Origin: an uncultured Lachnospiraceae bacterium
GTDB taxonomy: Bacteria > Bacillota > Clostridia > Lachnospirales > Lachnospiraceae
Direction of reading: 5' to 3'
Assembly: GCA_946631165.1 (NCBI GenBank)
Contig: CAMOZZ010000005.1
Span: 1-37,482, forward strand
Length of the DNA stretch: 37,482 bases
A program made the translations under genes and the position numbers. Under the pieces are notes generated by a model. It searched no databases, had not been told where the DNA came from, and saw nothing but the letters and a program-made list of their open reading frames with translations. This document shows positions 5,097 to 7,704 of this stretch, piece by piece. Numbering within the stretch: the stretch's first letter is position 1; each line of letters opens with the position of its first letter.

Positions 5097-5138
5097 AATT
5101 TAAGGGATTTTTCCCATTTTCAAGGAGGAGCACGAAGC

Positions 5139-7100
5139 ATGCACGAAAGCAACGATTATGACATGAAATATCTGGAAGCGCTCTCTTACCGCTTCCCGTC
5201 TATTGCCAAAACGAGTACAGAGATTATCAACCTCTGCTCGATCCTTCAGCTGCCCAAAGAGACCGAACATTTTATGACAGATATCCATGGTGAATATGAG
5301 CAGTTCGTTCATATCATGAAGAATGGTTCCGGTGCTGTCAGAAGCAAAATTGAAGACGAATTCGGCTTCAATCTTACCCCGCAGGATAAGAAGGATCTCG
5401 CTACCCTGATCTATTATCCGAAGGAGAAAATCGCGCTTGTCAAAGAATCCGGGGAAAACATGCACGATTGGTATCGTACCATGCTGCTGCGTCTCATCCG
5501 CATGGCGCGGCAGTCCGCCAAAAAGTACACCCGTTCCAAAGTCCGTAAATCGATGCCGGAAGATTTCGCCTATCTGATCGAAGAACTGATGAGCGAAACG
5601 GATTACGCGGACAAGGATAATTATTATGACAGGATCCTGGAAGCGCTTATCCAGACCGAACGTGTGGAAGAATGCATCGTGGCATTCTCGACGACCATCC
5701 AGAGGCTGACTGTCAACCACCTTCATATCATCGGCGACATCTACGACAGAGGCCCCGGTCCGGATATTATCATGGATACCATGATGGGCATCAAGAATCT
5801 TGACATCCAGTGGGGAAATCATGACGTTGTCTGGATGGGCGCTGCCTGCGGCAATCTCACACTGATCGCTACCGCCCTTCGTCTGACTGCCCGTTACGGC
5901 AATCTGGACACCGTGGAGAACGGCTACGGCATCAACCTGATCCCGCTGATGCGTTTTGCCATGGACGCTTACAAGGATGATCCCTGCAGCTGTTTCGGCC
6001 TGAAGTATGATGAAAAGACCTATGACATAAACGATCTGGAGCAGGATATCAAGATGCACAAGGCGATCGCCGTCATCCAGTTCAAGCTGGAGGGCCAGCT
6101 CATCAAGAGACACCCCGAATGGCATATGGAAGACCGTCTGCTGCTCGATAAGATCGACTGGGAGCGCGGCGTTATCAACTGTTACGGCAAAGAATATCCC
6201 ATGAAGGAAATGGGCTTCCCTACAGTGGATCCCAAAGATCCCTACGCCCTTACTGCAGAGGAAGAAGACGTGATGCTCCATCTTCAGAAGAGCTTCATGA
6301 ACAGTGAACGGCTGCAGCGGCATGTCCGTTTCCTGCTGAACAGAGGAAGGCTGTATCTGATCTACAACCAGAATCTCCTCTTCCACGGCAGCATTCCTCT
6401 TACGGAAGAAGGAGAACTGGCTGAAGTTCCGCTCGGGGACAAATGCTATAAAGGCAGGGAAGTGATGGATGTCCTGGACAATTATGTCCGCAAAGGCTAT
6501 TACCTTCCTGCAGGACCGGATAAAGATTATGCGACAGATGTTATTTACTTCCTGTGGACGCATCCGCTGTCACCGCTGTTCGGCAAATATAAGATGACGA
6601 CCTTTGAGCGCTACTTTATCGAAGATAAGGAAACGCACAACGAGCCGAAGACGCCTTATTACAAACTGTACAATAACGAAGAAGTCATTAAACGCATCTT
6701 CGACGAATTCGATCTCGACTGGGAAGAATCCCATATCATCAACGGCCATGTGCCGGTCAAGCAGAAGAAGGGAGAATCCCCTATCAAATGCGGCGGCAAG
6801 CTTCTGATGATCGACGGCGGTTTCTCCAGAGCTTACCAGAAGACCACCGGTATTGCCGGCTATACGCTGATCTCGAATTCCTACGGACTGAAGCTGGTCT
6901 ATCATGAGCCCTTTACATCAAAGGAAGATGCGATCAGGAACGGCAGCGACATCCATTCCGAGACGATGGTCGTGGAAGGCGTGCGCAAGCGCAAATCGGT
7001 AAGAGATACCGAACACGGCACCAGGATCCGGATGCAGCTGAAGGATCTCAAGGCCCTTCTGGAGTGCTACAGATCGGGACTGATTCCGGAGAAGGAATGA
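5139..7100 (+). CDS. fbp: Fructose-1,6-bisphosphatase class III
   Basis: ORF 5085..7100; start refined to MHESNDYDMKYLEALS after AAGGAGGAG because the promoter -10 overlaps the longer ORF. GDIYDRGPGPD, WGNHDVVWMGAACG, INGHVPVKQKKGE motifs. Confidence 0.95.
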   Translation: MHESNDYDMKYLEALSYRFPSIAKTSTEIINLCSILQLPKETEHFMTDIHGEYEQFVHIMKNGSGAVRSKIEDEFGFNLTPQDKKDLATLIYYPKEKIALVKESGENMHDWYRTMLLRLIRMARQSAKKYTRSKVRKSMPEDFAYLIEELMSETDYADKDNYYDRILEALIQTERVEECIVAFSTTIQRLTVNHLHIIGDIYDRGPGPDIIMDTMMGIKNLDIQWGNHDVVWMGAACGNLTLIATALRLTARYGNLDTVENGYGINLIPLMRFAMDAYKDDPCSCFGLKYDEKTYDINDLEQDIKMHKAIAVIQFKLEGQLIKRHPEWHMEDRLLLDKIDWERGVINCYGKEYPMKEMGFPTVDPKDPYALTAEEEDVMLHLQKSFMNSERLQRHVRFLLNRGRLYLIYNQNLLFHGSIPLTEEGELAEVPLGDKCYKGREVMDVLDNYVRKGYYLPAGPDKDYATDVIYFLWTHPLSPLFGKYKMTTFERYFIEDKETHNEPKTPYYKLYNNEEVIKRIFDEFDLDWEESHIINGHVPVKQKKGESPIKCGGKLLMIDGGFSRAYQKTTGIAGYTLISNSYGLKLVYHEPFTSKEDAIRNGSDIHSETMVVEGVRKRKSVRDTEHGTRIRMQLKDLKALLECYRSGLIPEKE

Positions 7101-7122
7101 TCGCGTTCGCTGAGAGCAGTGC

Positions 7123-7184
7123 ATAATGAAAAAGGAAGGCCGGGAGACAAGTTTACTTGTAACCCGGCTTTCCTTTTTCATTAT
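7123..7184 (+). terminator. Long hairpin / probable terminator of fbp
   Basis: ATAATGAAAAAGGAAGGCCGGG-ag-ACAAG-ttta-CTTGT-aa-CCCGGCTTTCCTTTTTCATTAT; 22-bp outer arm with a single G.U plus a 5-bp inner stem. Confidence 0.8.
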
Positions 7185-7236
7185 ATACGGCGACAGCCGT
7201 GTTGAGAACAAAAATCTCTGATTTTTGTTCGAACAA

Positions 7237-7292
7237 CTGCTCTCAGCTTGTGCTGCTCTCAGCCCATACTGCTCTCAGCCCATACTGCTCTC
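7237..7292. repeat. 16-bp tandem repeat, about 3.5 copies
   Basis: CTGCTCTCAGCTTGTG / CTGCTCTCAGCCCATA / CTGCTCTCAGCCCATA / CTGCTCTC. Confidence 0.9.
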
Positions 7293-7300
7293 CCCTTCAA

Positions 7301-7336
7301 AAAAAGACTGTGCAGGTCTTCCTGCACAGTCTTTTT
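7301..7336. terminator. Bidirectional intrinsic terminator between fbp and blaI-like gene
   Basis: AAAAAGACTGTGCAGG-tctt-type loop-CCTGCACAGTCTTTTT, perfect 16-bp stem with A/T tracts on both sides. Confidence 0.85.
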
Positions 7337-7365
7337 CGCTAATTAATTCTTTTCATACGAACAGA

Positions 7366-7704
7366 TCAGTCCCGCTCCGACTGTTCCATAAAACGTCCGT
7401 AAGCAGACAAAAATGTCTTTGACGCATCCGCACTCCAGAAATCTGCCATTCTTGCAGCATAGTCCTCAAGGAATTCCGTCTCTCCCACTTTCGGTGAGAA
7501 GCGCGAAGTTCCTTTCTTGTAGGAGCTTACGTATTTTTTGTCTTTCAGCCTTTTCAGAAAGGTATAAACTGTAGTTTCCTTATAAACAATATTATACGCT
7601 TCTTCTATGCTGATGATCAGTTCGCCTACTGTCATAGGAGAGCCTGACTCCCAAAGACATTTCATAACCATTAGCTCGCGATCGGATAAATCGGTAAAAT
7701 TCAT
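7366..7704 (-). CDS. BlaI/MecI/CopY-family winged-helix transcriptional repressor
   Basis: 112 aa: LSDRELMVMKCLWESGSPMTVGELIISIEE...VYKETTVYTFLKRLKDKKYVSSYKKGTSRFSPKV, the typical BlaI N-terminal wHTH. Confidence 0.87.
   Translation of the reverse strand: MNFTDLSDRELMVMKCLWESGSPMTVGELIISIEEAYNIVYKETTVYTFLKRLKDKKYVSSYKKGTSRFSPKVGETEFLEDYAARMADFWSADASKTFLSAYGRFMEQSERD

Follow-up and report, generated by a model that had tools for sequence, protein, structure and literature searches.

A four-way-junction element behind fbp in a Lachnospiraceae genome, read as one copy of a dispersed Lachnospirales family

The window, a stretch of 37,482 nucleotides from an uncultured Lachnospiraceae bacterium, carries on its forward strand the Firmicutes fructose-1,6-bisphosphatase gene fbp (5127-7100; Pfam FBPase_2, E = 4e-289), the coding frame of which may begin upstream of 5127. 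A gene for a BlaI/MecI-type repressor (7366-7704, reverse strand; Pfam Penicillinase_R, E = 4e-14) is convergent to it. Immediately 3' of the fbp stop codon (TGA, 7098-7100) begins a leader, TCGCGTTC (7101-7108), followed on the same strand by the 5' strand of a closing stem P1, GCTGAGAGCAGT (7109-7120), which pairs perfectly with its reverse complement ACTGCTCTCAGC at 7236-7247. P1 encloses three hairpins: P2 (7122-7184), with 22 bp at 7123-7184, an inner 5-bp tip ACAAG-TTTA-CTTGT and A/T-rich arms in this copy; P3 (ATACGGC-GACA-GCCGTGT, 7185-7202), the most conserved part; and P4 (GAACAAAAATC-TCT-GATTTTTGTTC, 7206-7230), a perfect helix of 11 bp. Further strands of the P1 3' type occupy 7248-7292, and a bidirectional intrinsic terminator with a perfect 16-bp stem and A/T flanks, which lies outside the element family described below, is found at 7301-7336. 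All parts named by a sequence-only reading of the locus, the strong bidirectional terminator included, were present in the window where it had placed them.

The predicted fold of 7107-7247 is a closed four-way junction of P1, P2, P3 and P4, which bears out the closed multibranch junction proposed from the letters. When 7101-7250 was folded with the terminator left out, the minimum free energy (MFE) was −85.3 kcal/mol (z = −15.0) and none of 200 shuffled sequences was as good; folding beyond shuffled sequence thus holds outside the terminators. The MFE and centroid structures were the same, with the 12-bp P1 around P2, P3 and P4, and the P3 core ACGGC-gaca-GCCGT at 7187-7200 was lengthened by the fold to 7185-7202. 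The longer segment 7101-7340 gave −121.1 kcal/mol (z = −14.5), the P3-P4 segment alone (7185-7250) still beat its shuffled counterparts (z = −4.3), and the complement strand of 7101-7250 folded more weakly, at −79.3 kcal/mol. A sigma-70-like promoter match on the reverse strand (TTCTCA-17-TATAAT, 7180-7208) overlaps P2 and P3 and is probably due to chance. Matches of the P2 hairpin to miRNA families were rejected, since any long hairpin would give such matches.

The tandem reiteration of the 3' closing strand, also noted in the sequence-only reading, has a 16-nt period: CTGCTCTCAGC begins at 7237, 7253 and 7269 and is followed by a partial fourth copy, and the reverse complement of GCTGAGAGCAGT recurs at 7268-7279. 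With at most one mismatch, CTGCTCTCAGC matched five times in the window against 0.86 expected. About three extra strands are present here and about seven at the orthologous locus of a relative (G003); within the genus, the tandem motif GCTCTCAGC x2 was found only in G003 and in the window's own genome (G000). In the family at large, the 12-nt core recurs at least once within 200 nt downstream in 21 of 123 members, compared to six upstream and 0.9 in shuffled flanks, and in 13 members 30-nt 3'-terminal pieces are duplicated whole. Reiteration of the P1 3' strand is a recurrent trait of the family.

When the own genome and 40 relatives were searched with BLASTN, the only complete ortholog came from G003 (which holds RGIG2573), where it likewise follows fbp; the own genome yielded no second copy. 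Two weak 25-nt matches to ATACGGCGACAGCCGTGTTGAGAAC, behind guaA in G003 and between glmS and guaA in G010, pointed to loci with the layout of the window element and different stems. A search of 299 genomes with the core pattern and two mismatches returned mostly chance matches and one true copy, at guaA in another genus (G245). From these three loci, the window being excluded, a first covariance model (R1) was built. R1 found the window element at 7107-7246 over its full length (1-133) with E = 2.7e-8 in the own genome; because the window was absent from the training set, this match is an independent test. It also recovered the fbp ortholog of G003 and detected members in 93 of 397 genomes of a family sample. 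The refined model R2 (49 pairs, about 137 nt), which was trained with the window copy, scores it at E = 5.7e-22. We conclude that, as judged by these models, the window element is a member of the R1/R2 family of four-way-junction elements of about 140 nt. No Rfam model matched in the window at the gathering threshold, and no convincing copy turned up in a search of plasmids, phages or viral contigs.

R2 detected members in 134 of 392 genomes sampled from the order Lachnospirales, in seven families; among the carriers are Lachnospiraceae of the gut and the rumen. The own genome (75% complete) holds two copies, divergent and not near-identical; the second, found by covariance model only, lies behind rpsI (ribosomal protein S9; G000:C57:5052-5178, L213). 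Thirteen copies were counted in G005 and seven each in G003 and G008, the highest number being 19 in Hominifimenecus microfluidus; Cuneatibacter sp. NSJ-177 has five and Pseudobutyrivibrio sp. ACV-2 none with R2. In G017, G383, G005 and G727, similar or near-identical copies stand in unrelated flanks. Between copies of one genome, similarity starts near TTTGCGCG on the 5' side and stops with P1 or shortly past it. Members also occur in close pairs (L132 1369-1638, nearly head to tail; L174, L207, L179). A complete element follows glmS in G010 (L098, G010:C87:6311-6444). Its counterpart behind glmS in G003 (L111, G003:C81:5776-5857) is truncated, with a CCGCG leader joined to the P3 3' strand, and looks like the product of a deletion between short direct repeats.

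The fold is supported by covariation across the family; the search for homologues with compensatory changes proposed in the sequence-only reading yielded dispersed, covarying members. In an R2 alignment of 102 members, 86.9% of 4742 pair cells were standard pairs, with 1551 compensatory changes as opposed to 469 in shuffled controls, and slid-structure controls reached 35-40% standard pairs. For 42 members, 92.8% of 1296 pair cells were standard, with 439 two-sided changes compared to 121 when shuffled and 28-46% standard pairs when slid. Since the alignments were made by fitting members to the models, they are biased toward the structure; the effect is so large, and the slid controls are so much lower, that we nevertheless regard the fold as secure. 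The P1 pairs are compensatory across the alignment, the P3 strands read ACGGC/GCCGT in the window and GCGGC/GCCGC at other loci, all nine modelled P4 pairs show two-sided changes among relatives, and P2, which corresponds to helices 2-6 of the alignment, has 83-99% of its cells paired. Where hairpins are long and perfect, some of the covariation could be due to template-switch correction without selection. The element also has a polarity. G-U pairs outnumber A-C mismatches (178 vs 89, and 64 vs 29 between Watson-Crick neighbours), and the element's own strand outfolds its complement in 115 of 131 members. Such a bias is consistent with selection acting on one of the two strands, in the form of either RNA or single-stranded DNA.

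Some members are embedded in RNase P RNA. Those of G002 and G007 sit within a variable region, which we take to be P12 from the known RNase P fold and the alignment; other members of the genus carry a short stem there, and G010 was masked at this region. A copy in another genus (G185), which also matches Clostridiales-1, occupies the same region, so that the RNase P insertions span two genera. The RNase P RNA of G004 (L146) has in the P12 region AGCAAT-TCGAGCGACCGCGTGGC, which resembles the remnant of a lost element. A copy embedded in RNase P must fold by itself as RNA. Termination within such copies would destroy RNase P RNA, which weighs against the idea that the fbp structure is no more than an enlarged terminator serving fbp and the convergent BlaI-like gene. 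The perfect bidirectional terminator at 7301-7336 and the A/T-rich P2 arms of the window copy would agree with that idea; P1, P3 and P4, however, covary family-wide, and P2 scores as a terminator in just 5 of 123 members, so that P2 as a general terminator was rejected. We consider this explanation very improbable.

The position of the copies relative to genes was analysed for 131 stronger, de-duplicated members with mechanically called open reading frames. The upstream gene was co-directional in 86 cases and divergent in 42 (p = 1e-4), and a stop codon fell within −12 to +20 nt of the modelled 5' end for 42 of the 86 co-directional genes compared to 5 of 46 convergent downstream genes (p = 9e-6). 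The upstream genes, named by eye from their C-termini, include rubrerythrin (about ten), guaA, glmS, fbp, rpsI, EF-Tu, groEL, typA, purH, spoIVB and flgG. A T(C)GCG(T) leader, as in the window, also follows the stops of guaA, glmS and other genes in relatives. Copies at the rubrerythrin site share a common P1 variant, so that inheritance accounts in part for this site, and the 42 stop-adjacent cases include non-independent ones. A clear downstream terminator was seen in few stop-adjacent copies (5 of 40).

Comparison of the window with G003 revealed 4 differences in the 147 positions of the element, all in the leader or P2, as opposed to 85 of 261 at four-fold sites of fbp (p = 1e-14). A recombination tract behind this 97% identity was ruled out by the sharp shift of identity at the element edges: fbp third positions are 60-82% identical in every 150-nt stretch with no steady rise toward the element, and the 80 nt past it are 59% identical. 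On the strength of this single ortholog pair, the fbp copy looks to be under constraint, and of all the evidence its low divergence argues most strongly that the window copy has a function; other ortholog pairs are far more diverged, with compensatory changes. In UBA3645, whose fbp protein is 94% identical, the gene is followed by TGATCGCTTACGCGATCACTCC, a short palindrome, and by no element (L046); contig DFKM01000160.1 ends 46 nt past the last sense codon, and the site may be either empty or a deletion scar.

The low divergence of the fbp copy bears on the possibility that the family is purely selfish mobile DNA of the REP, PATE or MITE type, in which a transposase would read folded single-stranded DNA and the fbp copy would have no host role. 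In line with such an origin, the flank profiles are T-rich on the 5' side (positions −7 and −6), copies that are nearly identical occur at unrelated sites, and many copies lie at contig ends, as is typical of repeats; the strand asymmetry would suit single-strand transposition. Against it stand the 4 of 147 changes in the fbp copy, where about a third of neutral sites have changed, and same-site copies behind rubrerythrin that are conserved in many genera. We regard a purely selfish element as possible, at distinctly less than even chances. A free-standing sRNA, processed from the fbp 3'UTR and acting in trans via its arms, would account for the strong conservation of the fbp copy, P2 and P4 arms included, and would agree with the classing of Clostridiales-1 as probably not cis-regulatory in the table of Weinberg et al. 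(PMC2864571). The arm sequences are unrelated at other loci, though, and the forward strand shows no conspicuous promoter for such an RNA near 7100, which makes an sRNA unlikely.

Taking these data into consideration, the explanation we favour, and hold to be somewhat more likely than not, is that the element is one copy of a dispersed Lachnospirales family that now forms a domain of the fbp 3'UTR and is of mobile origin. With the stop codon before it and the terminator at 7301-7336 after it, the element would make up the first part of the fbp 3'UTR in the transcript. There it is predicted to fold as an independent RNA domain, with protection or definition of the mRNA 3' end as its most likely role. 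The family would spread as non-autonomous DNA moved by a putative enzyme, and sense 3'UTRs would be the places in which copies are either tolerated or exploited. The fold with its covariation, the dispersal, the strand polarity, the sense adjacency to stop codons and the sequence constraint on the fbp copy enter this explanation as observations; strand bias and covariation would equally fit a one-strand single-stranded DNA intermediate, which counts against it, as do the small number of clear terminators downstream of stop-adjacent copies and the greater divergence of the other ortholog pairs. The sequence-only reading had offered a small RNA, a 3'UTR-derived RNA or a REP/MITE-like element. 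Its dispersed-element and 3'UTR versions are supported by the many copies and genomes, the unrelated sites, the preference for co-directional stops and the covariation; a classical REP or a plain MITE is not, given the Clostridiales-1-like four-way junction. More tentatively, the family may represent a new class of mobile structured elements that spread through Lachnospirales by inserting in sense behind stop codons and into peripheral stems of functional RNAs, the 3' reiteration being a trace of copying and some copies, such as that at fbp, having been co-opted. If so, each copy would be built, as an RNA domain, into the transcript that carries it.

Among known systems, REP/REPIN (RAYT) elements are likewise short, dispersed, non-autonomous and intergenic inverted repeats; they are, however, palindromes of 20-40 nt, whereas the present family has a four-way junction of about 140 nt (about 137 modelled) and far fewer copies. 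No GTAG/CGTC tag is fixed in the family flank profiles. MITEs resemble the family in their inverted termini (the P1 strands), dispersed copies and lack of genes, and also in near-identical copies at unrelated sites (G017, G383, G005, G727), unlike the window's own genome. In contrast to MITEs, the family termini are incompletely conserved between loci, the 3' end is often reiterated and there is a sense preference behind stops; when the flanks of near-identical copies were compared by eye, no target-site duplication was apparent. Cyanobacterial STRRs are short repeats inserted in RNase P RNA. They share acceptance in a peripheral RNase P stem; in the present case the accepted piece is an entire folded domain that belongs to a dispersed family.

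The closest likeness is to Clostridiales-1 (RF01699), which shares the closed four-way junction, the order P1-P4, the strand, a long P2 with a GCUUGC-type tip and the taxa. It was listed as probably an RNA and probably not cis-regulatory, from Clostridiales and the human gut (Weinberg et al., PMC2864571). A literature search for a description of the family returned just this table row; no description of dispersal, stop-codon adjacency or RNase P insertion was found in the text of that paper, the supplement of which may already note part of the present findings. The RF01699 model matched five members in full length and on the element strand (L138 38.6, L131 36.3, L118 33.8, L126 30.0 and L191 28.8 bits), all below its gathering score of 48, and gave no match in the window either at gathering or at E ≤ 10 (7090-7345, 256 nt). 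A Clostridiales-1-type RNA in G024 (L256:676-850, TGATGCC...GGCATCA), a genome that also holds a member of the window family, has the same layout and was missed by R2; its P3 is long, whereas P3 is a short conserved GC-NNNN-GC hairpin here. Since RF01699 misses the window and matches five members below gathering, we read the window copy, on these model scores, as belonging to a sibling family of Clostridiales-1 rather than to RF01699 itself. Clostridiales-1, a candidate RNA dating from 2010, is still an orphan, and its placement in a much larger dispersed family would give a first lead on its nature, through stop-adjacency at housekeeping genes (rubrerythrin, guaA, glmS, fbp, rpsI, EF-Tu, groEL) and acceptance in RNase P. 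The multi-copy isolates Cuneatibacter sp. NSJ-177 and Hominifimenecus microfluidus offer a ready test bed.
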